Positions 1,586-39,942 of a stretch of DNA of 64,000 nucleotides are shown piece after piece. The stretch is from Planctomycetota bacterium. Lineage in GTDB: Bacteria > Planctomycetota > UBA8742 > UBA2392. The stretch spans positions 1-64,000 of the forward strand of contig JAMQHL010000025.1 in the NCBI GenBank assembly GCA_025993795.1, given 5' to 3'. Made by a program: the position numbers and the translations under genes. The stretch's first letter is position 1. Every line of letters begins with the position of its first letter. Under the pieces are notes generated by a model, which worked only from the letters and a program-made list of their open reading frames with translations, was not told the DNA's origin and ran no database searches.

Positions 1586-3774
<2,189 letters not shown>

Positions 3775-3907
3775 TGTGTCCCCTGTCGATCGGAGCAACA
3801 GCAACGCAATTCAGCAATTGCCTAAGAAATGTCTACAATCTATAGAGTGTCAGTTACACAATGTCATGGACGGTTGGCAACCGTGGACAATCCATTAAAG
3901 AGGCACC

Positions 3908-4168
3908 ATGGCCGACAAGACCCAGCAATCGTACTATGACGCGCTCTCGGAAGAGGCCAAAATGTTGCTTGTCCTGCGCGACGAACTCTACATGGGTTCG
4001 TGGGACAAGATGGTCGACGACTTGAAGAACCGGCTGAAGGGCCGGCCATACATCTTCAAGCTCGTTAACCGGATCGAGGAGGACCTCGAGCGCATTGAGG
4101 CGTTGAGTTCTTACGAGGAAAAACACAAGCTAAACCTCCGCGATTACGACAAAGGAGATCGCCAGTGA
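3908..4168 (+). CDS. Small conserved-looking helical protein, 86 residues
   Basis: An 86-residue acidic/basic helical protein starting MADKTQQSYYDALSEEAK, rich in Glu, Lys, Asp and Leu, with no membrane segment. Its stop overlaps the GTG start of the downstream beta-propeller lipoprotein (GTGA overlap at 4165-4168), so the two are translationally coupled. I do not recognise the family. The coupling suggests a cytoplasmic partner or regulator of the lipoprotein, but that is inference. Confidence 0.7.
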   Translation: MADKTQQSYYDALSEEAKMLLVLRDELYMGSWDKMVDDLKNRLKGRPYIFKLVNRIEEDLERIEALSSYEEKHKLNLRDYDKGDRQ

Positions 4169-5664
4169 AGCATCGTACGTTCGCCAAACGTGCGCTTACG
4201 ATTCTCCCCCCCGGATTCTTGGCGCTTTCATTGATTGTGGCTGGATGTGTTGGATCTCAGCGGCGACCAGCCGACCGCAACCCGCTTGCACCGGACCCGA
4301 CAAGCCGGCAGTCCGCGTCGTACTACGAGACGCAGCTCATGGAGCTGCCGTTGCGTGTGCGGTCGTACGACCTGACCGGCAACATGCGGCGCAATCCTGT
4401 CGTGATCCGCGATATGCATGTGATTCATGACGACGTGCGCGACGAAATTCTGGTGATCGACGCCGACAAGGGCCGCAACACGTTGTGGTCGATTGACGCC
4501 TACGACTTCACGTTGCACTGGAAAACGCCGATTGAAAAGCGCGTCAACTTCGACCCGATTGCCACCCGTAATTATGTCGTGCTGATGAACAGCGACGGTG
4601 AGTACCAGTCCTATGACCGCCTCAGCAACCCGCGCGTTGATGAGGCGCGGCTTGTCAACATGGGCCGCTTCGAGGGCGACGTGTTTCCCTCTGCGCCGCC
4701 CACGGCCAATGATTCGCACGTGTACGTGCCCGCCACAAACACCAACGCTGTGCGCGGCCTTTCGATGGCTACCAATGGCCGTGGAGAGGGCGCCGATACC
4801 TGGTCGTTCCCGCGACCCGGACAGTCCGTGCAGGAACGTTTCTTACAGATCAGCCTGAAACCGGCCGCCGATGGCGAGACCGTGGCATTCGTCAACAACA
4901 ACTACTTCCTTTACATGGTAGACGCGCAAACCGGCGAGTTCCGTGCCGAGTGCGCGCTTGACGCCCACTCACGCACGCCGCCGGTGATCAAGGACGACTT
5001 GGTGTTTGTCGGCAGCGACATCGGCCAGCTTTTCGCATGGCAGAAGTCGGGCGAAAGCGCGTTTGTCATCACGCTTGAGGGGCTGCCCTGCGGCAACATT
5101 TTTGTCGAAGACCGCTGGATCTTTGTGCATACGCTGGAGATGTACGACCAGGAAGTTCCGACAGACGACGGCAAGGGCACACGCCTGAAGACAGCTACGC
5201 GCCCCGGCCAGCTGCTGGCATTCCAGTATGAACTGATCGACGTGCCCAACGACCGGCCGGTGTTCAATGTGATTGACGGCGACCCGTCCACAGCCTGGAA
5301 GATAGACCCCATGTGGACGCTGCCTGATGTCGGCCAGGAAGTACTGATGGTGCACGACAACCGCGTCTATGTGCTGTACGAAGAGAATGAAGAGTTTCTT
5401 AGCGTACGCGAAAAGGCCAAGCTGCGCGGCGAAGGCCGCATCGTCACCAAACGCGACGAACTGCGCACGGTCAGCCGCCAGCTGCGCGTTCTCGACGTCA
5501 AGACTGGCAACCTGCTGCGCCCGGAGTGGGACTTGAACCTGGCGGACTTCCCGTTCGTTGTCGGCAGCATGCACGAACGCGACCGCGCGATCTACCTGGG
5601 CACAAAAGACGGCTACGTTTTCAAAGTGTTCGGGAACAACAAGCGCGCAGCCGGCGGCGGCTAG
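4165..5664 (+). CDS. PQQ-like beta-propeller lipoprotein (BamB-like repeats)
   Basis: A 499-residue exported lipoprotein. The N terminus is basic (MKHRTFAKR), followed by a hydrophobic stretch ending in the lipobox VAGC at about residue 28. The rest shows repeated beta-propeller blades of the PQQ/quinoprotein type: LWSIDAYDFTLHWKTPIEKR, LYMVDAQTGEFRAECALD and LRVLDVKTGNLLRPEWDL, each with the W/L-x-x-D-x-x-T-G core. These resemble BamB, but no other outer-membrane assembly gene is near, so a scaffold role is only inferred. A GTG start is used with a strong AAAGGAG site at 4151-4157. A strong terminator follows. Confidence 0.82.
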   Translation: MKHRTFAKRALTILPPGFLALSLIVAGCVGSQRRPADRNPLAPDPTSRQSASYYETQLMELPLRVRSYDLTGNMRRNPVVIRDMHVIHDDVRDEILVIDADKGRNTLWSIDAYDFTLHWKTPIEKRVNFDPIATRNYVVLMNSDGEYQSYDRLSNPRVDEARLVNMGRFEGDVFPSAPPTANDSHVYVPATNTNAVRGLSMATNGRGEGADTWSFPRPGQSVQERFLQISLKPAADGETVAFVNNNYFLYMVDAQTGEFRAECALDAHSRTPPVIKDDLVFVGSDIGQLFAWQKSGESAFVITLEGLPCGNIFVEDRWIFVHTLEMYDQEVPTDDGKGTRLKTATRPGQLLAFQYELIDVPNDRPVFNVIDGDPSTAWKIDPMWTLPDVGQEVLMVHDNRVYVLYEENEEFLSVREKAKLRGEGRIVTKRDELRTVSRQLRVLDVKTGNLLRPEWDLNLADFPFVVGSMHERDRAIYLGTKDGYVFKVFGNNKRAAGGG

Positions 5665-5699
5665 TCCGATCCGACGCAGGACCAGTGCAGCTTAGTACA

Positions 5700-5727
5700 G
5701 AAAGGCGCAGCGACGGCTGCGCCTTTC
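5700..5727 (+). terminator. Strong stem-loop terminator
   Basis: A perfect 12-bp inverted repeat, arms 5700-5711 and 5716-5727, with a GACG tetraloop. The outer arm is A-rich and its partner T-rich, so it can act on either strand. It ends the lipoprotein transcript. Confidence 0.85.
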
Positions 5728-5779
5728 CATTTAGAACAGCCCAATCACCGGCAAAGGCGTTTCAAACCCGGAGGCAAGT

Positions 5780-5989
5780 ATGTCCCATCCTGACAAGACA
5801 GGTCTTAAAACCCGCGCCAAGACGCAGTTCAACGTGCGCTGGGACGAGTACAGCAGCAACGTCAAGCTCGTGGCGCAGGTCATTAAGGCCCAGATCAAAC
5901 ATGGAACCGGCGACCTGCACGGTGAGCTGAGCAAGGCCTTTCGCCAGCTGGGCAATGACGTCATTGAGTGCATTGTTGACGAAATGTAG
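5780..5989 (+). CDS. Small hypothetical helical protein, 69 residues
   Basis: A 69-residue soluble protein starting MSHPDKTGLKTRAK with a predicted long amphipathic helix (SSNVKLVAQVIKAQIKHG) and a second helix at the C terminus. A GGAGG ribosome-binding site at 5770-5774 sits 5 bases before the ATG, which supports expression. It is flanked by a terminator upstream and a convergent VWA-domain gene 5 bases downstream. I do not recognise the family and assign no function. Confidence 0.65.
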   Translation: MSHPDKTGLKTRAKTQFNVRWDEYSSNVKLVAQVIKAQIKHGTGDLHGELSKAFRQLGNDVIECIVDEM

Positions 5990-5994
5990 GCGCT

Positions 5995-8406
5995 TCACGT
6001 CGCGCGGTTCCGCAACGCGAATCCGGCAACAAGAAACGTGAGCGCAAGCAATGCTGCCGCCCAGGTCAGGTCAATGGGCGACTTCGCGGGCTCGCCGATG
6101 CGGGTCGGCGTCCAGGCATCGAGGCTGCTCACTACACGGATGCCGGCTTGTGCGGCCATGGAGAAGAAGACCTCATCGTCGCCGGTTAACCTGAGTTCAT
6201 GCGGCACCAGGCGCGGTAGCGCAATGCGCTGTAGCAGCAACTCGCCGTCAAAGACCTGCAACTCCTCTCCTGCCGGCAACTTATCCAGCAGCCAGCGCCC
6301 CGGCGTATCAAGCCGTGCGGCGCCGCCGCTGGAAAGGCGCAAGTCCCTGGCGGGGGCCGCAATCGTTCCGACCCAGATCAGCTCGGCGCCTTGCTCAAGG
6401 ACATTCAGGAGCAGGTTGGTACGGCTGGCGGTGGCAAGAATGAACTCAATGGCAAACGCAAGTCGTTCTTGAAAGAACCCGGTGCCCCAGAACGCCGCAA
6501 GCCGCTCATCGCCCCAAGAGCGAGTGCACAGGCAAGCCGTGCGGCCAACAAGCTGCCGGTGCGCAAGCAGCGGGTACTCCGGAAAACGCACGGCCGGCGT
6601 CTGCGCGGTCAGTGTCGGCGTTACCGACCTCTCCGTGCGCAGGGCCGTCTTGGCCAGCAGGTGCAGCGGCTCAGGCACACCGCCCACTTCCCACTTGTCG
6701 GTTGACACCCAACTGCTGTCGCCCCCGGCAAGGGCCCTGTCCAGAGTCTCCAGCAGTTTACTGAACCCGTCGCTGCCGGCTGTCCAGAAGTGCACGTCGG
6801 GCTTCGACGGCGCTTCCCGCAACCAGCCAATCCACGCGTGTTGGGCTGGGTCAGTCAAGACAATGTCAGCACGGACCTTGCCGGCTGCCAGCGCATCCGC
6901 GAGCTCGAGCCATTCAAGCTGGCTTGCGCTGTTGTCTTCGCCGTCGGTGATCACGAACAGCCGCCGCTGTTGGTCTTCGCCGCCGCCCAATGCCGCCAGC
7001 GCTGTGCTCATGCTGCGACGGATGCGAGTGGTCAGTTCGGCGCGCAGGCCCCGAAGCGTCGCTGTGTGCTCAGGGGCGCCGGGACGCCGAAAGACGATGT
7101 CGCCCTGCACGGACTGGTTGAAGCCAACGAGTGCCACGGCGTCCGTCGGTGACGCGGTTGCCAGCACACGCTCTGCAGCCTCGCGCAGGCGGTCCAGCTT
7201 GGTGGCGCCCCCGGGCAGCGTTTGCCCCATGCTTTCGGATGCATCGAGCAACAGCAACAGGCGATGCGGCGGCACGTCCTGGGGGCGAAAGCGCACGGGC
7301 ATGACATCCTCCAGCGCTGTGCCGCGATAGCCGCCCGGCCCGAATGCGCCCTCTGCGCCGAGCATCAACAGGTTGCCGCCTGCCATGACCCAATCGCGCA
7401 GTACCTGCAAACCGTCGCGCGTGGCCCCGGATTCATGCAACGGCAGATTGTTGATGATCAGCGCCCCAATGCCTTCCAGTGCCGCAGCCGTCACAGGCAA
7501 CTCATGACTTACACGCACTTCATTGCGCGGGTCGGCCCGCAGTGTCACAAGCAGTCCATCTGCGGCCGGCGAGTGACCGCGCGGTACACAGTAGGCGATC
7601 ACGCGGCGGCCCCCGGCGTAGAAAGCCACAGATGCCTCGTCGTTCGCGGGTTCGCGATCGCCCGCGACTTCCAGTACCAGCCGCACGCGCACAAGGCCGC
7701 TGCCCGGCGCGACCAGACTGTAGCTGAGCCCAGCCGCGAGCCCGCCCTTCACGCTGCGCGTGCCCTGTGCGATCGCGTTGCTTCCGATCATCATCTTCCA
7801 GCCGATCTGCGCGTCTGTGTCGCACTGAATCGTGGCGCGCAACAGGGCCGTGCCGCCATCCGCAACAGACGTCGGTGCCGTGAAATCAAGGACTGACGCA
7901 TCCGGTCTGGCGGGCGGCGGCAAGCGCAGAAGCAGCAGGCGGCGGGTGTCTACGGCCTGCATCAGATCCGCGAGGCGCCCCCGGCCATCGGTCGCGAGAA
8001 TGACTTCGCCATCGACGGCGGCGTCCGCACGCAGACCCGCCAATGCGGTGTAGTCGGTGCCGCCGCCCCCAGGCGACCCCACAGAACGCAGCGCATCAGA
8101 CAGCTCGTATCGCGCAACACTGTGCGAAGCCGGAAGTGTCGCCCCTGCCAGGGCATCCACAATTGCCGCTTCAGCGGCGGCCTTGCGCGGCGCAATCGAC
8201 CCGGAGACATCCTGCACGACTGCATGCGTCGCTCCGGGCGCCTCACTGCCTATTGATGGGCGCGCGCCGGCCAGAAGAAATGCCGCGCCCGCCAGCGCAA
8301 ACAGCGGCGCTGCCGGCCGACGCAGCTTGATCGCCGCCGCGACTGCTGCCAGCGCGACAGCGGCAGATACGATTACCAGCCACGGGATGTCGAACTCAAG
8401 TCCCAT
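5995..8406 (-). CDS. Membrane-anchored VWA-domain protein (BatA-like)
   Basis: An 803-residue protein with two N-terminal transmembrane helices (residues about 7-47), a large periplasmic part and one C-terminal helix (about 775-797). A von Willebrand A domain in the middle begins with LLLLLDASESMGQ near residue 385. It provides the D-x-S-x-S metal-ion-dependent adhesion site, and ITDGEDNS later gives the second metal segment. A GALIINNLPLHESG-type strand before it resembles the class-I glutamine-amidotransferase-like fold often found in such proteins, which is inference. The architecture resembles large BatA/DUF4159-type VWA membrane proteins, but no MoxR ATPase is adjacent. It converges on the 69-residue gene and diverges from the SpoIID-like gene. 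Confidence 0.82.
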   Translation of the reverse strand: MGLEFDIPWLVIVSAAVALAAVAAAIKLRRPAAPLFALAGAAFLLAGARPSIGSEAPGATHAVVQDVSGSIAPRKAAAEAAIVDALAGATLPASHSVARYELSDALRSVGSPGGGGTDYTALAGLRADAAVDGEVILATDGRGRLADLMQAVDTRRLLLLRLPPPARPDASVLDFTAPTSVADGGTALLRATIQCDTDAQIGWKMMIGSNAIAQGTRSVKGGLAAGLSYSLVAPGSGLVRVRLVLEVAGDREPANDEASVAFYAGGRRVIAYCVPRGHSPAADGLLVTLRADPRNEVRVSHELPVTAAALEGIGALIINNLPLHESGATRDGLQVLRDWVMAGGNLLMLGAEGAFGPGGYRGTALEDVMPVRFRPQDVPPHRLLLLLDASESMGQTLPGGATKLDRLREAAERVLATASPTDAVALVGFNQSVQGDIVFRRPGAPEHTATLRGLRAELTTRIRRSMSTALAALGGGEDQQRRLFVITDGEDNSASQLEWLELADALAAGKVRADIVLTDPAQHAWIGWLREAPSKPDVHFWTAGSDGFSKLLETLDRALAGGDSSWVSTDKWEVGGVPEPLHLLAKTALRTERSVTPTLTAQTPAVRFPEYPLLAHRQLVGRTACLCTRSWGDERLAAFWGTGFFQERLAFAIEFILATASRTNLLLNVLEQGAELIWVGTIAAPARDLRLSSGGAARLDTPGRWLLDKLPAGEELQVFDGELLLQRIALPRLVPHELRLTGDDEVFFSMAAQAGIRVVSSLDAWTPTRIGEPAKSPIDLTWAAALLALTFLVAGFALRNRAT

Positions 8407-29191: not shown

Positions 29192-29787
29192 GCAGTGCCA
29201 CAGTGCCTGACCGATTCCGCTTCTGGACGCTGGCGAATATTTTCACATTCGCGCGATTCGTATTTGCACCGGTATGCGCGATCCTGTTCCTGCAAGAAAC
29301 CTGGTGGGGTGTGTGGGTTGCCGGTTGGCTTGCGGGCCTGGCGATGTTCACGGACTTCTGCGATGGCTACTTCGCGCGGCGCCAGAAGCAGGTAAGCGAC
29401 CTGGGCAAAATCTTCGACCCGCTGGCCGACGCCGTCTTTTTCATCATGGTCTGGACAGCCCTTGGTGTGGCTGGTGCGTACCCCTTGTGGCTGGCGTTAC
29501 CGTTTATCGCCCGTGAGCTGGTGCAGCATGTGTACCTGCGGCCAAGCGCAATGCGGCTGGGCGTGGTGCTGGGGGCGAACTTCTGGGGCAAGCTGAAGAC
29601 GCTGGTGCAGACGCTGGTGCTGATCGCGATGTGCTGGATTGAGTTTGGAATTGACTACTATCCCGAGTACACACGGCTGGCCCGTGGCACCAACATCGTG
29701 CTGATCAGCGTGACTGCACTGGTGAGCGTGGTTTCGATTGTGCCATACTTCGGGGCCTTGCGGCGTGCCCAGATGGCGCGACACTAA
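29188..29787 (+). CDS. CDP-alcohol phosphatidyltransferase (PgsA-like)
   Basis: A 199-residue integral membrane enzyme with several hydrophobic helices that joins a CDP-activated lipid to an alcohol. The family signature is complete at residues 56-81: D56-x-x-D59-G60-x-x-A63-R64, then G73, D77 and D81 in DFCDGYFARRQKQVSDLG continuing KIFDPLAD. Size and motif fit CDP-diacylglycerol-glycerol-3-phosphate 3-phosphatidyltransferase, but other alcohol acceptors are possible. It overlaps the upstream P-II-like gene by four bases and is followed 4 bases later by a ThiF-type gene. Confidence 0.88.
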   Translation: MSSATVPDRFRFWTLANIFTFARFVFAPVCAILFLQETWWGVWVAGWLAGLAMFTDFCDGYFARRQKQVSDLGKIFDPLADAVFFIMVWTALGVAGAYPLWLALPFIARELVQHVYLRPSAMRLGVVLGANFWGKLKTLVQTLVLIAMCWIEFGIDYYPEYTRLARGTNIVLISVTALVSVVSIVPYFGALRRAQMARH

Positions 29788-29791
29788 CGCC

Positions 29792-30799
29792 ATGTCTCGA
29801 TACACACGGCAGGAACTGTTCGCGCCTGTAGGCCCGCAGGGCCAAGCGCACATTCGTGCTTCGCGGGTGCTGCTGGTCGGTTGCGGTGCACTGGGCACGC
29901 ATCTGGCCGAATTCTGCGTGCGGGCAGGGGTCGGCGAGTTGCGCATCTTGGACCGTGACTTCGTCGAGGAAAGCAACCTTCAGCGGCAGAGTCTGTTCAC
30001 GGAAGCAGACGCCCGGCAAGCCCAGCCAAAAGCCGAAGCGGCGCGCCTTGCGCTGCAACGCGTGAACAGTGATGTGCAGATTTCAGCCCACATAGAGGAC
30101 TTCAACTGGCGCAACGCGCTGAAGCTGGTTGACGGTGCCACGTTGATCCTTGACGGCAGCGACAACTTCGAAACCCGCTTTCTGCTCAATGACCTCGCTG
30201 TCAGGCAGGGTATCCCGTGGGTCTATGCTGGCTGCGTCGGGTCGCGCGCCGTGTGCATGCCGGTGATTCCGGGCCGATCTGCGTGCCTGCGCTGCATGCT
30301 TGAAGAGCAGCCGCCCGCCGGCGGCGAAACCTGCGACACGACTGGCGTAATCTTGCCCGCGGTGTTGCAGGCCGTGGCATGGGCGAGCGTGGTTGCCCTG
30401 AAGATCATGAGCGGCAATGAAGGCGCGCTGTTCAAGAAGATGTACAGCTCAGACATGTGGACAGGCGAACGCCAGATCCTCGGGGCTGCAACCCCGCGCG
30501 CCGATTGCCCCTGCTGCGGCCTGCGCGAGTTTCCGTGGCTTGATGGTGAGCGCGGCGTCAAAGCCGCCACACTGTGCGGCCGCAACAGCGTACAGCTCAT
30601 GCCGGAAAAGGCTTTTGACTACGAAGCCGTAAGACAGCGCATTCGTGCGGCAGTGACAGTCACAACCGAGAACGACTTTCTCTTGCGAGTGCAGTCGGGG
30701 GAACTCACCCTCACGCTGTACCGCAATGGCCGGGCACTGGTACATGGAACGGATGATGAAGTGCGCTCCCGCGCGCTCTACACCAAACTCGTCGGCTGA
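29792..30799 (+). CDS. ThiF/MoeB/HesA-family E1-like adenylyltransferase
   Basis: A 335-residue enzyme expected to adenylate the C-terminal Gly-Gly of a small sulfur-carrier protein such as ThiS or MoaD. It begins YTRQELFAPVG, then the ATP-binding Rossmann motif VGCGALGTHLAE, the DRDFVEESNLQRQSLFTEAD signature and LILDGSDNFETRFLLND. Zinc cysteine pairs are CLRCM and CPCCG, and the candidate catalytic cysteine is in GETCDTTGVILP. A C-terminal extension of about 70 residues carries a short strand-rich domain. Neither thiS nor moaD is nearby. It is the third gene of the P-II operon. Confidence 0.92.
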   Translation: MSRYTRQELFAPVGPQGQAHIRASRVLLVGCGALGTHLAEFCVRAGVGELRILDRDFVEESNLQRQSLFTEADARQAQPKAEAARLALQRVNSDVQISAHIEDFNWRNALKLVDGATLILDGSDNFETRFLLNDLAVRQGIPWVYAGCVGSRAVCMPVIPGRSACLRCMLEEQPPAGGETCDTTGVILPAVLQAVAWASVVALKIMSGNEGALFKKMYSSDMWTGERQILGAATPRADCPCCGLREFPWLDGERGVKAATLCGRNSVQLMPEKAFDYEAVRQRIRAAVTVTTENDFLLRVQSGELTLTLYRNGRALVHGTDDEVRSRALYTKLVG

Positions 30800-32781: not shown

Positions 32782-33558
32782 ATGCTTGAGCGCGCCACAG
32801 CGGTATCTGCGATGCAAAGCCTGTTTTCGGGGCTTGAGAGCCGCATTGTTCGTCAACGCATGTTGCCGCACCCGGGCGAAGGGTCGCTCTATGATTTCGA
32901 CCCAAACCGGGTATCGCGCCGCAGTTTCCGGCAAGGCGACCTGTCCCCCGGCGGCAAGGGGCCATTCATCCGCCGCGAATCTATCGGTCTGCTTCATAAG
33001 CCGATGCTGGGCCTGGCAGCGGTCAAAGTCTGTGTCGTACTCGACTTCGGCAACGCAGAACGCCGATTCACCGCCGACGCAATCCAGGAAACTGTCCGCT
33101 GGGCCTTGGCGCCGCTGCGGCCGGACATCTATTTCGTGATCGGTTTCGCCGGCGCACGCGAACCCCACTTGGCGGGCCACACGGATGAGGTTCTGCGGGC
33201 GCTTTCAGGGGGCACGAACTGGCGAGGGGCGTTGATTGAATACGCCGATCCAGGTTGGGCCGTCACCGCGCCCAGAGACGGCGCGATCCTGCCTGCATTG
33301 TTCGAGAACCTGTTCGACCCTGAACCCGTTGACCAGAAGATCGCGCGGGTTGACGCGGCGCTCTTGGCTGCCCATGAACTGCGCGAGCCGGGCGGGTTTA
33401 TGCTGCTTGATGACCTTGCCCAACGTGTCGCGGTGGGCAAAGATCTGGTCACAGACCGCGCGATCCTGTATGCCGAGCGGACACCCGGTCTTGGCGTCAA
33501 GGAAGTCGGCGGAGACCTGATCATCCAGCGTGACCGATTTGAAAGCATGAGGGCCTGA
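32782..33558 (+). CDS. Hypothetical protein with winged-helix-like C terminus, first gene of ESCRT-like cluster
   Basis: A 258-residue soluble protein. The middle has an alternating strand-helix pattern, AVKVCVVLDFGNAERRF followed by IQETVRWALAPLRPDIYFVI, reminiscent of a VWA-like or Rossmann fold but without a D-x-S-x-S motif. The last 70 residues fit a winged helix: one helix (KIARVDAALLAAHELREPG), a second (LLDDLAQRVAVG), a third (KDLVTDRAILYAER) and a beta wing (GVKEVGGDLIIQRDRF). Winged helices are found in eukaryotic ESCRT-II and CHMP7 and in archaeal CdvB, making this a candidate adaptor; that is inference. Its stop overlaps the next gene's start (TGATG at 33556-33560). Confidence 0.65.
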   Translation: MLERATAVSAMQSLFSGLESRIVRQRMLPHPGEGSLYDFDPNRVSRRSFRQGDLSPGGKGPFIRRESIGLLHKPMLGLAAVKVCVVLDFGNAERRFTADAIQETVRWALAPLRPDIYFVIGFAGAREPHLAGHTDEVLRALSGGTNWRGALIEYADPGWAVTAPRDGAILPALFENLFDPEPVDQKIARVDAALLAAHELREPGGFMLLDDLAQRVAVGKDLVTDRAILYAERTPGLGVKEVGGDLIIQRDRFESMRA

Positions 33559-34238
33559 TGAGCCTGCTCGACCGCATCAAAAACATGATCAAGGGCCAAG
33601 CCGGCGAAGCCGAGCAGGTGATTCGTGATGCCAGCAGCACGCGCGAAATGCTTGAGCATCTGGACGACCTGATTACGCAGAACGAGGTCGAGTTACGCAA
33701 AACCCGGCAGGAGCTGGCGCGACTGGAACTGTCTGAGCGCGCCAGCATCGAGAACATCAAGTCCGGCCGCGTGGGCGACCGCGAGAAGGAGTTTGTGCTG
33801 CTGCAGATCAAGCGCACACGCACCCAGATGGAAAGCCTGAAGCTCAAGGCCGACATCCTGAACAAGAACATCGAGCTGCACCTGAACCTTGTTGGCAAGA
33901 TCCAGGCCATGGAGGCCATGGACCTTCGTGGTATTGAGCAGTCGGTTGTAGAGCGCGTCATGCTCGACTTCGAAGAAGGCATGGAAAAGTACCGGGAAGC
34001 CGTGCACGCCGGAGAAGGCATAACGCAGAGCCGCGAAGATGTTCTGACCGCCAAGGACAAAGAGGAGTTGCGCACACTGGAAAAGGAAATCCTGGGTGAG
34101 AAGCCAAGGACAGAAAAGCCGAACATGGACCAGGAACTCGCTGACATTGAGGCGGAACTGATGCAGGCAGAACACGAGCGCAAACAAGCTTCAAAAGAGA
34201 ACGACAAGCAGATGAAGCAGAAACCCGAGCTTGAGTAG
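33558..34238 (+). CDS. ESCRT-III-like helical protein 1
   Basis: A 226-residue, almost entirely helical, highly charged protein. The N terminus MSLLDRIKNMIKG is a short amphipathic membrane-binding-type helix. Long helices follow: TREMLEHLDDLITQNEVELR, then VLLQIKRTRTQMESLKLKAD and ILNKNIELHLNLVGKIQAME. An acidic C-terminal region ends in a predicted helix MDQELADIEAELMQAEHERK that resembles an MIT-interacting motif. The layout of basic first hairpin, acidic second half and terminal helix is that of CHMP/Snf7 proteins; PspA/Vipp1 is the alternative in the same superfamily. It overlaps the upstream gene (ATGA) and is followed by two further proteins of similar build and a Vps4-like ATPase. Confidence 0.72.
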   Translation: MSLLDRIKNMIKGQAGEAEQVIRDASSTREMLEHLDDLITQNEVELRKTRQELARLELSERASIENIKSGRVGDREKEFVLLQIKRTRTQMESLKLKADILNKNIELHLNLVGKIQAMEAMDLRGIEQSVVERVMLDFEEGMEKYREAVHAGEGITQSREDVLTAKDKEELRTLEKEILGEKPRTEKPNMDQELADIEAELMQAEHERKQASKENDKQMKQKPELE

Positions 34239-34354
34239 CGACGCTGTTACAGAAGCGGGCTCGTTTCGTAGCACAGTACTTTGCAGGCAGTTCTCACAAT
34301 GTAAGCGGCAGGTGTCAGCCGGGGCAGATGCCCCGCAGGAAGTCCGGAGGGTCA

Positions 34355-34972
34355 ATGCCACAGAACTTTTTCAGCATGTTGTTCGGCGGGCGGATCGACC
34401 TGCGCAAACTGAAGGTGAAGCTGCGTGAGGTTGAGCGCGACCGCCGCAAGTACTTCATGGAGTTGCGCAAGAGTTCTGCCAAGCAGGGCACGTTGATTGA
34501 GCAGATCAAGGCCGCGCGCCGCGAAGGCAACCAGATCGAAGTGGACTACCTCTGGGAAGAGTTGAAGGCGATCAAGTACGACTTCGCGTTCAGCCGCCGC
34601 ACCGCCAAAGTGAGCAACCTGGAAGGCATTGCCCTGAAGAAGTACATCCGCGGCCTGGAGCGACTTGAAAAGCGCAAGGACAAAGACGGCGTCAACAAGT
34701 TGCTGCAACGCATTCGCACCAGCGGGCTCGATGCCAAGCTCGCGCTGCAACAGATTGATGAGCAGGCGTACATGGATGAACTCAACGCCACGCTGGAAGA
34801 CATCGGGCTGGAAATCGACGGAGAGTTTGAGGACCAGGACCCCGAAAAGGAGCGCTTCCTGTCCGAGATCGACACGATCAATGAAGCCGAAGAAGCAGGC
34901 AACTTCGACGAGGCCCTGAAAACCGAAGCTGAACTCAAACACAAGCTCGAATCCGAAGAAGGAGCGGTTTGA
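34355..34972 (+). CDS. ESCRT-III-like helical protein 2
   Basis: A 205-residue helical protein starting at 34355 with GGAGGG 4 bases upstream. Its N terminus, MPQNFFSMLFGG, has the aromatic-hydrophobic tip followed by a basic helix seen in Snf7-type proteins. Next come RKLKVKLREVERDRRKYFME, then LIEQIKAARREGNQIEVDYL, and VSNLEGIALKKYIRGLERLE. The second half is strongly acidic (EIDGEFEDQDPEKERFLSEI) and ends in a helix EALKTEAELKHKLESEE. The split into a basic first half and acidic second half fits autoinhibited ESCRT-III architecture. It lies 71 bases upstream of the MIT-AAA ATPase gene. Confidence 0.68.
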   Translation: MPQNFFSMLFGGRIDLRKLKVKLREVERDRRKYFMELRKSSAKQGTLIEQIKAARREGNQIEVDYLWEELKAIKYDFAFSRRTAKVSNLEGIALKKYIRGLERLEKRKDKDGVNKLLQRIRTSGLDAKLALQQIDEQAYMDELNATLEDIGLEIDGEFEDQDPEKERFLSEIDTINEAEEAGNFDEALKTEAELKHKLESEEGAV

Positions 34973-35043
34973 AGTAGAGGTCCCATGCTGCACAGGCACT
35001 GCGCTGTTACTTGACCTCTGTACTTTGACCTTCTGGGTACGTC

Positions 35044-36282
35044 ATGGATCTTAGCGGCAAACTCAAACGCTCCTGCGAAGACTCGCTGCACAAGGCCAAG
35101 ATGGCATGGAAGGCGGGTGATTCCGATACAGCCGCCGGTCACTTTGAGGCAGCCAGCAAGTCGATGTTCAAGTATGCCGAGTACGCCACTTCGCGCAGCA
35201 TGGAGTATGCGCGCAAACGCAAGGCCATCGAGTACCGCGACTTTGCCAAGCGCCTGCGCGACACCGCAGCAGAGCAGGCCAAGGGCGGCAAGCTGCCGCC
35301 GCCACCCAGCACCAGCGTCGATGAAGACCGTGCGCAGGAAGCCGGCGCGGGCGAAACCGACCGCAGCATCAGCGAGACGGTAAGCCAGTTGATTCACACC
35401 AGCACGTTGACGTGGGACGACATTGGCGGGCTTGACGAAACCAAACGCGACATCAAGTACACGCTCGGGCTGTCGCTGGCCAAGCCGCCTGCCGAGGTGA
35501 AGATCACCACGTTTCGCAACATCCTGTTCTACGGGCCGCCCGGCACGGGCAAGACGCTGTTAGCAGCGGCGACCAGCAACAGCCTGAAGGTGACAACGGA
35601 GGGCCAGGCGCTGTTCTTCAACGTCAAGGTCAGCAGCGTGCTAAGCAAGTACTTTGGCGAAAGCAGCAAGATCATCAGCGAGATCTACGGCGCTGCGCGC
35701 GATAACTCGCCCAGCGTTGTGTTCCTTGATGAATTCGAGAGCCTGACAACGTCGCGCGATTCCGGCGAACAGTCGGGCGCAGAACGCCGCATTCTTTCAA
35801 CGATTCTGGCTGAAATGGACGGCCTGAGCGAGAAAGGGCGCAGCGACATTTTCGTGCTCACAATCGCCGCTACCAACCGCCCCTGGGACATTGACGCCGC
35901 CGTCATGTCTCGCTTCGAGAAGCAGATTCTGATTCCGCTGCCTGACCCTGAAAGCCGCACCGCCATCTTGCGCATCCAGCTTGAGCGAAAGGGCTACCAC
36001 GTTGCGGACGATGTCTTGGAACAACTGATCGAAATCACCGACGGCTACTCAGGGCGTGAAATCGAGCGGCTTTGCAAGCAGGCCACGAGCCAGATGCTGG
36101 GCGAACTCAATGCCGACCTGCCGGAGATCCTGGACAGCGGCCTGAAGGCCACGCAGAACTACCAGGTCAGGGTCCGCGCGCTGATTGCGGACGACTTCGA
36201 GCGTGCGGCAACCATGATCAAGCCGGTCACCAGCCCCGCCGACATGCAGCGCTACCTCGACTGGAGCCCGGAAGCGGACTGA
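35044..36282 (+). CDS. Vps4-like AAA ATPase with N-terminal MIT-like domain
   Basis: A 412-residue meiotic-clade AAA ATPase. Residues about 8-75 form an MIT-like three-helix bundle (KAKMAWKAGDSDTAAGHFEA, then KYAEYATSRSMEYARKRKAI). A Pro/acidic linker leads to LTWDDIGGLDETKRDI at 122. Walker A is GPPGTGKT (164-171), Walker B VVFLDE (225-230), the sensor AATNRPWDID starts at 275, arginine-finger segment SRFEKQILIPLPDPESR starts at 289, and sensor-2-type GYSGREIERL at 334. WDDI-x-GL, SRFEK, LPLP-type and GYSG motifs resemble Vps4/katanin. The C terminus lacks the extra beta domain of Vps4. It most likely disassembles the neighbouring ESCRT-III-like proteins, which is inference. Neither FtsH-like protease nor proteasome genes are nearby. 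Confidence 0.93.
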   Translation: MDLSGKLKRSCEDSLHKAKMAWKAGDSDTAAGHFEAASKSMFKYAEYATSRSMEYARKRKAIEYRDFAKRLRDTAAEQAKGGKLPPPPSTSVDEDRAQEAGAGETDRSISETVSQLIHTSTLTWDDIGGLDETKRDIKYTLGLSLAKPPAEVKITTFRNILFYGPPGTGKTLLAAATSNSLKVTTEGQALFFNVKVSSVLSKYFGESSKIISEIYGAARDNSPSVVFLDEFESLTTSRDSGEQSGAERRILSTILAEMDGLSEKGRSDIFVLTIAATNRPWDIDAAVMSRFEKQILIPLPDPESRTAILRIQLERKGYHVADDVLEQLIEITDGYSGREIERLCKQATSQMLGELNADLPEILDSGLKATQNYQVRVRALIADDFERAATMIKPVTSPADMQRYLDWSPEAD

Positions 36283-36306
36283 GGATGCGCGGTGCGAACG
36301 CCAATC

Positions 36307-37116
36307 ATGCCTGAGACACGACTGCTTGTTGAAGAATCGCTGCGGCCTGAGCTTGAGGCGCTGGACCTGCTTTCCCTTGACGCAATCTTTCAGCGAAGTG
36401 ACTTGAGCGTTGTGAAGGCAAAGCTTGCCGAGCGCCAGACGCTACGCCTTGAGTCCGCAACAGGAACGTCGTGGTTCATCAAGCGCTACAACCAGCCAGC
36501 CCCGGACCCGTTCTGGAGCGGCTTGTTTGCCGAGCAGTTTGATTCCCCGGTGCAGCGCGAGTGGGCAGTGCTGCGCCGGCTGTACAAGCTGGGCATTGAC
36601 GCCCCGCGGCCTGCCGCGTGCATCGAAGAACTGGACGGTGCCCGCGTGCTCCGGGCCGCGCTGGTCACGGTCGGGCTGCCGGCTGTCACAAGCCTGCAGG
36701 CGCTGGTTCGGGCCGGCAGGGTTTCACCCGCCCGGCGCCAGCGTATTGCGGCCCAACTGGGGCGTATCCTGCGCACCATGCACGACGGCGGTGTGAACCA
36801 TCGCGACTTCTACCTGGTTCACATTCTGGTGGGCGCCGACGATCGCTTGTTTGTGACGGACCTGAACCGGGCTGATATTCGGAAACGCGTGACGCATCGC
36901 TGGCGCGTCAAGGATGTTGCCGCGCTGCTGCACTCGGCGCCCGGAGCTGTCACCGCCACGGACAAGGCCCGCTTTCTTTGCGCCTACCTTGGCAAACGCA
37001 AGCTGCGCAGCGCCCGCGAGTTCATCGAGGCTGCGTTCCGCAAGTCGGCTCGCATGACGGCTCATACGCGCAAGAGAGTGTCCGAGGGCGAACCGAACTA
37101 TCACGTAGTGGAGTGA
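36307..37116 (+). CDS. WaaP/InaA-type lipopolysaccharide kinase-family protein
   Basis: A 269-residue protein-kinase-fold protein. Features are the N-lobe lysine in GTSWFIKRYNQPAPDPFW, the helix QREWAVLRRLYKLGIDAPRP, the catalytic loop GGVNHRDFYLVHILV with HRD, and the metal-binding VTDLNRADIRKRVTHRWRVK where DLN replaces the usual DFG or DLH. These segments match WaaP/InaA/Kdo-kinase relatives that phosphorylate lipopolysaccharide core sugars or related substrates. A GTG start five codons upstream is possible. It is inserted between the MIT-AAA gene and the CHMP-like gene in the same orientation, which is unusual and may indicate a role in the cluster. Confidence 0.82.
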   Translation: MPETRLLVEESLRPELEALDLLSLDAIFQRSDLSVVKAKLAERQTLRLESATGTSWFIKRYNQPAPDPFWSGLFAEQFDSPVQREWAVLRRLYKLGIDAPRPAACIEELDGARVLRAALVTVGLPAVTSLQALVRAGRVSPARRQRIAAQLGRILRTMHDGGVNHRDFYLVHILVGADDRLFVTDLNRADIRKRVTHRWRVKDVAALLHSAPGAVTATDKARFLCAYLGKRKLRSAREFIEAAFRKSARMTAHTRKRVSEGEPNYHVVE

Positions 37117-37241
37117 GGACAGCCAAGCTTGGAACTTGCGGCAGTCACTTGAGAGCCCTGCCCGCGTTTTGGCAAGTACGGCGGGGACAACCCATTGAAG
37201 ATTGCGGCGCGATCTTCGATCATTCTTTCCCAAGGAGACCC

Positions 37242-37847
37242 ATGGGTATCTTCAAAAGCAAAGAAGAGCGTCGCATCGCGCGGGATATGGAGATCAAGAA
37301 GGGCATCCAGCGCATGAAGCGCCAGGTGCGCGAACTCAACAAGTCAGAGGAAGAATGGCTTGAGAAAGCCCGCAAGGCCGGCCGCATGGGGGCCAACGAC
37401 CAGCTTGCCTTCATTCGCAAGTCTCTCAAGGCGACCACGGCCCAGCGCCGCATGCTTGAGCGTCAGATGCTCACGATTGAAGCCGCCTACCAGATGAAGA
37501 ACCAGGCCGAGAGTTTTGCCGTGTTCGCCGAGAGCATGGGCGTCGTCAGCAAGAGCATCAACGAGATCTACAAGACGACAGACCTGGAAAGCACGCAGCG
37601 CAATTTCGAACACGCCATGATGCAGGCCGAGACCATGGGCCAGCGCATGGACCTGTTCCTGGACATGACCAAAGAGAGCCTGTTTGAGCAGGACAGCGCT
37701 ACCGGCGAAACGCTGGTAACTGATGCCGAGATCGACCAGATGATCGGCATATCAACGGACGACCGCAAGAAGAAGAGTCGCGAGGAACTTGATCGTGACA
37801 TCGCCCGTGAACTCGGCGAGGACCTGGAAGAGGACAAAGCCAAATAG
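37242..37847 (+). CDS. ESCRT-III-like (CHMP-type) helical protein 3
   Basis: A 201-residue protein with the closest visible resemblance to eukaryotic CHMP proteins. It starts MGIFKSKEERRIARDMEIKK, very like the MGLFGK opening of CHMP3, with AGGAG 4 bases before the ATG. A first hairpin follows (KRQVRELNKSEEEWLEKARK, then AFIRKSLKATTAQRRMLERQ). The middle region VFAESMGVVSKSINEIYKTT and NFEHAMMQAETMGQRMDLFL matches the helix 3-4 pattern, with acidic VTDAEIDQMIGIS after it. The last helix SREELDRDIARELGEDLEED could serve as a MIM1-like MIT-binding motif. PspA/Vipp1 is the alternative fold-mate, but that family lacks an MIT-ATPase partner. Confidence 0.78.
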   Translation: MGIFKSKEERRIARDMEIKKGIQRMKRQVRELNKSEEEWLEKARKAGRMGANDQLAFIRKSLKATTAQRRMLERQMLTIEAAYQMKNQAESFAVFAESMGVVSKSINEIYKTTDLESTQRNFEHAMMQAETMGQRMDLFLDMTKESLFEQDSATGETLVTDAEIDQMIGISTDDRKKKSREELDRDIARELGEDLEEDKAK

Positions 37848-37866: not shown

Positions 37867-38334
37867 TCAAATCATCGGCATCTGCGCCAAGTTGGCCGGC
37901 AGCTTGCGCTCGCACCAGTGCTGCAGCCGCTCAAGTCGCCCGCTGGATTCGATCTTGTGATAGCCGAAGATCCGCGGTGCATCGTTTCCAAAACTTTCAA
38001 ACCCGGTCTGCTCAATGCTGACCCGCACGCCGCGTTCCGAGCTGACGATCACAACCATCTCCTGCACCCTGCCGGAAAGCCAGTTGAACTGCCACGAACC
38101 GCCGAGGCGCCAGTTCGCGTCCCAGGTTGCGTACTCAAAAGTATCAACCCGGTCGCGACCGACGTAGCGCAACTCGTACCCGCCGCCCACGTCCTGTTTG
38201 TGCTCGCAGACCGGTTGCCCCCACCATGCACGCAACTCGTAGACGTCCGTGAGTGCCCGCCATGCTGTCTGCTCGTCGCACGCGATTTCGCGCTCGAGCC
38301 GGAGGTAGTGAGGAGCAAGAACCTTGGTCGTCAT
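37867..38334 (-). CDS. SRPBCC (AHSA1-like) domain protein
   Basis: A 155-residue soluble protein with a START/Bet v1-like ligand pocket fold. It opens HYLRLEREIACDEQTAWRAL followed by TDVYELRAWWGQPV, the usual first strand, helix pair and W-W segment of AHSA1-type proteins. A curved sheet follows (GGGYELRYVGRDRVDTFEYA) and the final helix is RLERLQHWCERKL. Ligand unknown. It converges on the ESCRT-like cluster 19 bases away and overlaps nothing. It lies just downstream of murD on the same strand (3-base gap). Confidence 0.85.
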   Translation of the reverse strand: MTTKVLAPHYLRLEREIACDEQTAWRALTDVYELRAWWGQPVCEHKQDVGGGYELRYVGRDRVDTFEYATWDANWRLGGSWQFNWLSGRVQEMVVIVSSERGVRVSIEQTGFESFGNDAPRIFGYHKIESSGRLERLQHWCERKLPANLAQMPMI

Positions 38335-38337
38335 AGG

Positions 38338-39942
38338 TTATGTTTCGTGTGCTTCTACTAACGCCTTGAAATGTCGTCCACGGTGTTCGAAGTTTGTGAA
38401 CCGCGTGTTGGGGGCATACTCGTAAAAGCTCGCGCTGGCCGGCGACATCAGTATGACCCAACTTGCCTTCACGGTTTCAAACGCAATCTCGCAGGCCTCA
38501 TCAAAACTGCCAACGATCCCAACCCTTGGTCTGTCATGGGCGTCCAAACCGCCGGAAGTCCCGTACTTGCGCATCCAAGCGGCGGAGCAACTCCGCTTGA
38601 TCGCGCCGGCATTCGGCCCCTGCACGAGGACCATCTGTAAGTGCCGGTGCGCAAAGATCGCATCCGCCAAGTCGTCGTAGCTCAATCCCTTGTCGCTGCC
38701 GCCAAGGATTAACACCAACGGATGGTCAGGGAAGGCGCTGAGTGCGGCAATCGTGGACTCGGGGGTGGTTGCGATGCTGTCATTGAAGCAACGCGCGCCG
38801 TTGACTACGCCGCAGAACTCAAGCCGGTGCTCAACACCCCGAAACCGGCGCGCGCCCCCCAGCGTCTTCAGCGTCGGCTCAAGCCGCTGGTCGAGGCCCG
38901 CGTAGACTAACGCCAGCGCACACAGAAAATTCTGCCAGTTGAAGCGGCCGGGCAGTCGCAAGTCGCCCGGCGCAAAGGGCACGTCGGCAGCCTTGACGCT
39001 GGAGCGCTGGTGGATCCTGCATAGCACCGGCTTACCGCCCTCCGAGGTGATCAACGCGGGGCTGTCAGCGACGTCGCCGGCTGTGCCGCGCCGTGCATGG
39101 CAACTGATGTCATTCTCGGTCACCAGCCAGGCTGTGCTTCCTGCCGACGTGCGCTCGCTTACCAGATCGTTGACTCCGGGCCCGTCGAAGAACATTGCTC
39201 TCTCGTTGGGCAAGTAGCGATAGATCGCGCTTTTTGCCCAGGCGTACTCAGCCATGTCCTTATGCCAATCCAGGTGATTGGCCGTAATGTTGGTAACGAG
39301 ACTGATTGCGCACGAACGCCGGATGCGATGCCAATCCTGAAGTTGAAAGCTGCTTAACTCCAGCACCACGACATCGTCGGCCGTGATCTCGGGAAGGCGA
39401 TTGATCAGCGGCTCGCCGCAATTTCCGCCGAGCCAAACCTTGCCCGGCAAAGAAGCCTGGGCCTTCGCAGTATCGGCCCACCGGCCCTCAAGCTCAGGCT
39501 GGGCCCGCTGCATTACCTCACACAGCATCTCGTAGGCAAGCAGAGCCGTTGTTGTCTTGCCGTTGCTGCCGGTAACGCCCACCGTTCTCGCCGGACATGC
39601 CTCAATGAAGAGGCTCATTTCCATCGTGACTTCGGCGCCTGATTCGCGCGCAAGTTGCAAGTACCTGTTGTCCGGGCGCACTGCGGGGCTGTGGATTACA
39701 ACATCGGCGTTTCGGAAGTCCTCTTCGCGATGCTCGCCCAAGCGGTACTCAACGGGCAAGCCTTGCAGCTCGTCAATGCTCCGGCGGAGAACGTCTGGCC
39801 CACGCAGGTCGGTAACGACCAGACTCGAGCAGTACGCCGCAAGAAACTTCACGCTTTCGGTGCCGCCGCCAAACACGCCCAGGCCCATCACAAGCCCACG
39901 TTTGCCGCGGAAGCGCTCCGGAAATTGAAGCCGTTCGGTCAT
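38338..39942 (-). CDS. murD: UDP-N-acetylmuramoylalanine-D-glutamate ligase
   Basis: A 534-residue Mur ligase adding D-glutamate to UDP-MurNAc-L-Ala. The N-terminal Rossmann-like domain has GLVMGLGVFGGGTESVKFLA. The central ATPase domain has the P-loop VGVTGSNGKTTTALLAYEML (about residue 118), VVVLELSSFQLQDW, NITANHLDWH and later the catalytic-lysine region YAWAKSAIYRYLPNE. The C-terminal domain has RFRGVEHRLEFCGVVNGARC followed by FNDSIATTPESTIAAL. MurD is normally about 450 residues, so this is long. It lies outside any division/cell-wall cluster. Its start overlaps the PEGA lipoprotein stop by four bases. Confidence 0.93.
   Translation of the reverse strand: MTERLQFPERFRGKRGLVMGLGVFGGGTESVKFLAAYCSSLVVTDLRGPDVLRRSIDELQGLPVEYRLGEHREEDFRNADVVIHSPAVRPDNRYLQLARESGAEVTMEMSLFIEACPARTVGVTGSNGKTTTALLAYEMLCEVMQRAQPELEGRWADTAKAQASLPGKVWLGGNCGEPLINRLPEITADDVVVLELSSFQLQDWHRIRRSCAISLVTNITANHLDWHKDMAEYAWAKSAIYRYLPNERAMFFDGPGVNDLVSERTSAGSTAWLVTENDISCHARRGTAGDVADSPALITSEGGKPVLCRIHQRSSVKAADVPFAPGDLRLPGRFNWQNFLCALALVYAGLDQRLEPTLKTLGGARRFRGVEHRLEFCGVVNGARCFNDSIATTPESTIAALSAFPDHPLVLILGGSDKGLSYDDLADAIFAHRHLQMVLVQGPNAGAIKRSCSAAWMRKYGTSGGLDAHDRPRVGIVGSFDEACEIAFETVKASWVILMSPASASFYEYAPNTRFTNFEHRGRHFKALVEAHET

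Follow-up and report, generated by a model that had tools for sequence, protein, structure and literature searches.

A cluster of six co-oriented genes, here called A to F, in a 64,000-nucleotide stretch of DNA from a Planctomycetota bacterium (GenBank assembly GCA_025993795.1, contig JAMQHL010000025.1, positions 1 to 64,000; hereafter the window) probably encodes a bacterial counterpart of the endosomal sorting complexes required for transport (ESCRT), that is, a system of the ESCRT-III/Vps4 kind that likely uses ATP to remodel or sever the cytoplasmic membrane. In the literature an ESCRT system is defined by a Vps4 ATPase gene with an ESCRT-III gene close by, and judged by sequence this bacterium has both. 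Gene D encodes a Vps4-type member of the AAA class (ATPases associated with diverse cellular activities), and gene F encodes a relative of the Snf7/CHMP proteins. The original prediction, made from the letters of the window, had proposed an ESCRT-III/Vps4-type cluster, and the Snf7 match of F, together with the Vps4 signature and the phylogenetic position of D, supports that proposal. The six genes lie at positions 32782-37847, all on the plus strand, within about 5 kb:

Gene A, 32782-33558, plus strand: protein of 258 amino acids (aa), no family match.
Gene B, 33558-34238, plus strand: helical protein of 226 aa, predicted to be ESCRT-III/PspA-like; its start overlaps the stop codon of A.
Gene C, 34355-34972, plus strand: helical protein of 205 aa, predicted to be ESCRT-III-like.
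Gene D, 35044-36282, plus strand: Vps4-type AAA ATPase of 412 aa (AAA, PF00004, E 1.1e-34).
Gene E, 36307-37116, plus strand: kinase of the Kdo/WaaP family (PF06293, E 6.3e-27).
Gene F, 37242-37847, plus strand: Snf7/CHMP-like protein of 201 aa (Snf7 in 37 of 45 family members at E<=0.01).

The assignment of F to the Snf7/CHMP (ESCRT-III) proteins is based on several kinds of sequence comparison. In a Pfam scan of the window copy Snf7 (PF03357) ranked first (E 0.002, 18.3 bits). Of 45 members of the F family, 37 had Snf7 matches at E<=0.01, the best at 6.5e-8, compared with two that matched DUF1811; in a set of 14 family members 12 matched Snf7 at E<=1, and a precomputed PF03357 annotation was present on 34 of the 120 F homologues listed (313 in total). 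A single-sequence phmmer search of the PDB with F returned four sequences, all of them CHMP3, and in the corresponding profile search CHMP3 and SNF7 made up the top seven of 20 rows, the best being CHMP3 at E 1.6e-4. With hhalign, F aligned to two Asgard ESCRT-III proteins over 101 columns (probability 86.8, E 4.3e-6), while B and C stayed below 6, and a profile of 45 F rows retrieved one Asgard ESCRT-III protein at 9.8e-6 from 508 open reading frames (ORFs), the best reversed decoy lying at 1.1. The acidic C-terminal segment of F is conserved in most of the 45 members. The Snf7 matches appear to be specific for the F family, because the B and C families, which are helical as well, give none. 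The original prediction had named the absence of any Snf7-superfamily match to hidden Markov models as an outcome that would speak against it; the opposite was found, with Snf7 as the first Pfam family and matches in most members.

It should be noted that several observations weigh against this assignment. The 18.3 bits of the window copy are below the Pfam cut-off for Snf7 of 27.3, and for this copy DUF1811 (E 0.0032, 18.2 bits) nearly equals Snf7; when the whole genome that contains the window was scanned for Snf7, nothing matched at E<=0.001. The second Asgard ESCRT-III protein reached just 0.023 in the 508-ORF search, and the hhalign comparison of F with CdvB was weak (probability 5.5). 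The F protein of Desulfobacter (G402) scored 12.4 bits and was the second-best Snf7 match of its genome. With an earlier F profile, reversed decoys were found down to E 0.023 among 4385 ORFs, and therefore weak helical matches need care; one F profile was, in addition, built with distant rows that it then found, so that the E-values for those rows are not independent. As a scale for these scores, Snf7 values for genes beside archaeal Vps4 were 10.3 and 16.7 bits (Thaumarchaeal), 30.0 bits (Bathyarchaeal) and 43.4 bits (Thorarchaeal). In two Anaerolineae genomes (G406 and G407) the F gene beside an AAA gene is the best Snf7 match of the genome, with 17.9 and 16.1 bits.

Gene D is, by its motor signature and its place in a tree, a Vps4-type rather than a Cdc48-type AAA ATPase. 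Its Walker A and Walker B motifs are intact, and it carries the signature NxPWxxD...(S/R)RF(E/Q)K (in D, PWxxD and SRFEK) without the two-residue insert of Cdc48. This signature is common to the Asgard, Bathyarchaeal and Thaumarchaeal Vps4/CdvC rows and missing in all 10 Cdc48 rows. A tree was computed from 41 chosen domains, none of them eukaryotic, and rooted at its midpoint; two long branches of Victivallales are uncertainly placed in it. The D genes from Planctomycetota, Anaerolineae and Desulfobacter formed one clade in this tree (support 97/93), and the genes nearest to it were Vps4-like genes of Methanomicrobia and Halobacteria. The branch that joins the bacterial and the euryarchaeal clade had a support of 99/96 when one Victivallales gene was included. 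When the tree was rooted on Cdc48, the bacterial and euryarchaeal genes fell on one side together with the Asgard/TACK Vps4 rows (96/91). In a profile search of the PDB with the N terminus of D (about residues 1-80) the MIT domain of VPS4B was the best match (E 0.0011), and eight of the 38 rows were VPS4. At E<=1 the Vps4_C domain was matched by 14 of 18 aligned members, a set in which six members are archaeal.

For D, too, there are points on the other side. The joining branch has a support of just 87/48 without the Victivallales genes, the D protein of Desulfobacter does not have the PW of the signature, and Vps4_C is weak on D itself, with 13 bits compared to a cut-off of 21.3. A designed TPR protein (0.0013) ties with the MIT domain of VPS4B, and Pfam MIT does not match D. 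Thus, of the Vps4-like ATPase with an MIT-like N terminus that had been proposed, the motor is supported by signature and tree, while the N terminus can be called MIT-like, with VPS4B MIT as its best match, but not decisively so.

These results bear on a different reading of the cluster, namely that it works as a membrane-stress system of the PspA/Vipp1 type that recruited an AAA ATPase and lies outside the Vps4/CHMP branch. PspA and Vipp1 are in the same superfamily as ESCRT-III (PMC8281802), bacterial PspA has been found beside distinct AAA ATPases (Ravi et al., PMC11237479), and the fold matches of C described below include chains of Vipp1 and PspA. Against these stand the Snf7 matches of F and its family, for whose 45 members PspA_IM30 (PF04012) is not among the seven families listed at E<=0.01. 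Neither Vipp1 nor PspA occurs in the 20 PDB rows of the F profile. The window's genome, which is 85% complete, gave no PspA_IM30 match at E<=0.001, and D carries the Vps4 signature and falls with Vps4-like genes of archaea in the tree. A system that works in the PspA/Vipp1 manner is therefore regarded as improbable, and an ESCRT-III/Vps4-kind system is preferred.

The genes of the proposed ESCRT-III/Vps4 system are conserved together. The six co-oriented genes are present as had been described; F and D recur across genomes and the gene order is kept, so that these are conserved genes and not chance ORFs. Of the 13 loci closest to the cluster (L024-L035 and L037; D 70-98% identical), 12 show the order A-B-C-D-F intact, the remaining one being L027, whose sequence is cut at its start. 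Among 60 Planctomycetota genomes tested, the window's own included, F was found in 27, including all 16 examined genomes of the window's family, and D (at 1e-60) in 24. The linkage count covered the 22 genomes that have both genes, and in 21 of them D precedes F on one contig and in one orientation. Five of the 27 F-positive genomes gave no D match at 1e-60 (G004, G005, G020, G027, G057), and two of the 24 D-positive genomes gave no F match (G017, G019).

The wider distribution is patchy, and this weighs against the proposed system. F is found in 56 of 392 Planctomycetota, one of these being a marginal partial match (G366, 3.2e-4), in 2 of 350 genomes from the phylum to which G406 belongs (labelled Chloroflexota in the tree) and in 1 of 194 genomes of the order of G402 (Desulfobacter latus), which itself was the source of the query. 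Outside Planctomycetota F is thus rare and occurs in Anaerolineae, in Desulfobacter and perhaps in Victivallales, the Victivallales case (L051) being built on distant matches. At that locus, a cluster at positions 2741-7245 combines two AAA genes with several small helical genes. Vps4_C is above the cut-off in one of the two AAA genes, and the gene at 5355-5963 is the only Snf7 match of the genome at E<=1. Multicellular magnetotactic bacteria belong to a wider group of which Desulfobacter is also a member, and ESCRT-III homologues in them are reportedly, by its title, the subject of a 2022 preprint (bioRxiv 2022.11.08.515611).

A second AAA gene (D2) follows F elsewhere in loci of Planctomycetota and Anaerolineae:

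D2 in locus L041: 8158-9318.
D2 in locus L036: 9517-10641.
D2 in locus L038: 6045-7298.
D2 in locus L040: 10798-11979.
D2 in locus L042: 3056-4174.

The D2 protein of L041 has Vps4_C above the cut-off and matches MIT at 5.3e-4, which is below the cut-off; no close copy of D2 was found in the window's genome. Near the ESCRT genes of this Anaerolineae locus a DA1-like protein is encoded (L041, 12043-12825; PF12315, 1.3e-17). An SPFH/Band 7 gene lies beside the cluster in the planctomycete locus L038 (7299-9206) and in the archaeal Vps4-like locus L044 (147-2006), the latter with zinc ribbons. A seeming fusion of Vps4 and ESCRT-III in a 601-aa ORF of L039 was rejected, as its run of X is an assembly gap and the frame after the gap, judged by eye, does not continue D.

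Genes B and C are predicted to encode further ESCRT-III-like subunits, based on structure models. The AlphaFold2 model of C (mean pLDDT 76.0, pTM 0.62) contains a basic N-terminal part and an acidic tail in which residues 163-199 are predicted to form a two-helix hairpin of their own, and 15 of its best 50 Foldseek rows are chains of the ESCRT-III superfamily, Vipp1/PspA among them, at E 0.34 or more. The model of B (mean pLDDT 76.9, pTM 0.51) has a short N-terminal helix, a long helical hairpin and further helices; six of its best 50 Foldseek rows (four entries) are chains of the superfamily, at E 0.19 or more. In addition, a two-row profile of the genes that take the place of C in L036 and L042 retrieved eight small ORFs that adjoin four archaeal Vps4-like genes, with E-values between 8e-9 and 9e-6 against 2.3 for the best reversed decoy; this suggests that C is distantly linked to ESCRT-III-like pairs beside archaeal Vps4-like genes. 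The basic first part and acidic second part that had been described for all three small proteins were found in C and F, with net charges in the first 60% and the last 40% of +15/-21 and +9/-12, respectively, and not in B (-1/-10).

The results on B and C also include points against several ESCRT-III subunits in the cluster. Snf7 was not matched at E<=0.01 by any of 31 B members or 51 C members, hhalign comparisons of B and C gave probabilities below 8, and BAR, bMERB and other helical folds match both proteins as well as or better than ESCRT-III chains do; for B, BAR and bMERB domains outscored ESCRT-III chains in a further fold comparison. With hhalign no profile-profile links were found among B, C and F, nor did B or C show one to CdvB or to ESCRT-III of Asgard archaea. 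Thus, from the three ESCRT-III-like proteins of the original prediction F emerges with its Snf7 match, C and B are less well supported, having no Snf7 match and unspecific fold matches, and B is the least supported of the three.

The absence of Snf7 matches for B and C and the unspecific nature of their long-helix fold matches are also what could be expected if the AAA protein D served to unfold or disaggregate other clients, and if B, C and F were unrelated coiled-coil adaptors, the ESCRT likeness being a convergence of charged helical proteins. The resemblance of the N terminus of D to a TPR design, and the reversed decoys that reached E 0.023 with an F profile, point in the same direction. 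However, the Snf7 matches of the F family are specific and are not given by the helical B and C families, and the signature of Vps4 in D, its Vps4-like relatives in archaea and the conservation of the gene linkage agree with one another, and thus an unfoldase with unrelated adaptors is considered very improbable.

If the cluster is an ESCRT-III/Vps4-kind system, its mode of action would, by homology, be as follows. With their short N termini, B, C and F would attach to the inner membrane face and form a joint polymer there, and the MIT-like domain of D would grip the acidic C-terminal segments of the three proteins. ATP hydrolysis by D would extract subunits, and the polymer would thereby change its shape and narrow or sever a membrane neck. 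The likely setting is one in which the cytoplasmic membrane is constricted, forms vesicles or is repaired, in a lineage without FtsZ above the cut-off; division, internal membrane remodelling, vesicle formation and repair are all compatible with the cluster.

One special case of this proposal is that the ESCRT part is correct and that the job is cell division, with replacement of FtsZ in the window's family. FtsZ above the cut-off was found in none of the 60 Planctomycetota genomes, the own family included (two weak matches), and it had no match at E<=0.001 in the window's genome (G000, 85% complete), from which PspA_IM30 was likewise absent at that threshold. F is present in all 16 examined genomes of the family, and the Cdv system of archaea is an ESCRT division system (PMC10936438, PMC12993045). 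On the other hand, 33 of the 60 genomes have no F match while none has FtsZ above the cut-off, and therefore ESCRT is not a general replacement; the patchy distribution of the cluster across the phylum argues in the same way. A general substitution of FtsZ by ESCRT in Planctomycetota was thus rejected, and a role in division within the family of the window is possible but doubtful. A more far-reaching version can be put forward tentatively, as a possibility that is less than even: that bacteria contain a full multi-subunit ESCRT-III/Vps4 machine, which is the universal scission engine, for the last step of division or for internal budding, of a planctomycete family in which no FtsZ was found, that the C-type subunits and the ATPase are one module shared with euryarchaea, and that ESCRT is not a hallmark of archaea and eukaryotes. 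As to its origin, the family most probably either came to bacteria from euryarchaeal Vps4-like systems by transfer or shares a common ancestor with them.

Gene A is conserved upstream of B in 12 close loci and has a distant homologue in L040 (4526-5467; 21% identical, E 2.8e-4). The winged-helix protein that the original prediction saw in A found no backing: its C-terminal part resembles a winged helix when judged by eye, Pfam gives no support and a PDB profile search gave no useful match. Winged-helix genes have been described upstream of ESCRT-III-like genes in archaea (Makarova et al., PMC10936438), and by analogy with several archaeal ESCRT loci A may be a winged-helix adaptor. The long A ORFs of relatives (up to 895 aa) were discounted, since they are most probably a frame left open opposite a divergent ABC transporter gene, and for this reason the comparisons used the last 258 residues only. 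E is located between D and F in nine of the 13 closest loci and is missing there in the other four, and is probably accessory and not core to the cluster. The kinase-like gene of the original prediction is thus a real kinase-family gene, of the lipopolysaccharide-kinase type (Kdo/WaaP, PF06293). A link to kinases across phyla is not claimed, as the kinase profile drifted to ordinary protein kinases in other loci. In L032 (9313-13398) two large genes lie between D and F, the first of which has a trypsin-like domain.

The surroundings of the cluster are bacterial in kind, with genes for a MurD-like ligase, a carbamoyltransferase, a response regulator and a CDP-alcohol phosphatidyltransferase in the flanks, and its G+C content of 0.597 fits that of the window (0.609). 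The host genome is a draft of 3.29 Mb, 85% complete, whose closest named relatives are metagenome-assembled genomes of Planctomycetota; D is 98% identical to a homologue in JADZFR010000022. Downstream, an AHSA1-domain gene and the MurD-like ligase gene (37867-39942) are convergent neighbours of the cluster, and a minus-strand gene of 155 aa occupies the same downstream place in six close loci (L024, L025, L026, L028, L030, L035). Upstream, a gene of the ThiF family (E1-like fold) is found at 29738-30799, just past an ABC transporter. A defence system was considered and rejected, PADLOC having given just generic matches to AAA proteins (IetA, TRIP13, mad8) and to a kinase (PD-T4-6).

In the survey of Makarova et al. 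2024 (PMC10936438) systems with vps4 and ESCRT-III genes are confined to archaea and eukaryotes, and bacteria have been described as having no clear Vps4 homologue (Carlton and Baum 2023). Ravi et al. 2024 (PMC11237479) reported Vps4-like ATPases in bacteria, which they read as transfer from archaea, with snf7 displaced by an unrelated gene of the TPR/6TM (six-transmembrane) type, and also Snf7 homologues with a transmembrane segment near AAA ATPases in longer operons. A report of a linked Snf7-type/Vps4 pair in Planctomycetota or Chloroflexota was not found in the literature searched, the coverage of which excludes bioRxiv and most subscription journals. This linked pair in Planctomycetota, with scattered relatives, changes the picture of a system of archaea and eukaryotes only. 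Whether bacteria cut membranes as ESCRT does becomes testable, and the genes are candidates for a role in division or in the remodelling of internal membranes in a phylum in which none of 60 genomes has FtsZ above the cut-off.

Among known systems, the euryarchaeal Vps4 systems of the Meth_adaptin/Halo_adaptin type are close in several respects, the archaeal loci being tentatively placed in these clades from the description in PMC10936438. They contain the nearest relatives of D in the tree, pairs of proteins of about 200 aa beside the archaeal ATPase that are homologous to the C-type genes of L036 and L042, and an SPFH gene beside the cluster in the archaeal L044 as in the planctomycete L038; an association with SPFH has been described for Meth_adaptin loci (Makarova et al., PMC10936438). 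They differ in that the host is here a bacterium and that a Snf7-type gene F follows D, and the six window genes have no Pfam match to adaptin, GOLD or zinc-ribbon families. With ESCRT-III and Vps4 of Asgard archaea and eukaryotes the cluster shares the matches of the F profile to CHMP3/SNF7 and to Asgard ESCRT-III, as well as the Vps4 motor signature and, less decisively, the MIT-like N terminus of D; unlike in those systems, none of the six window genes matches an ESCRT-I/II or ubiquitin family in Pfam, and D falls in a different clade from the Asgard/TACK Vps4 rows. The bacterial PspA/Vipp1 (IM30) proteins belong to the same superfamily and also remodel bacterial membranes, but the F family has no PspA_IM30 match, several candidate subunits are present and a Vps4-type ATPase adjoins them. 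Like the bacterial loci described by Ravi et al. (PMC11237479), the cluster has a Vps4-like AAA ATPase in a bacterium; in contrast to those loci, the Snf7-type gene here stays beside the ATPase.

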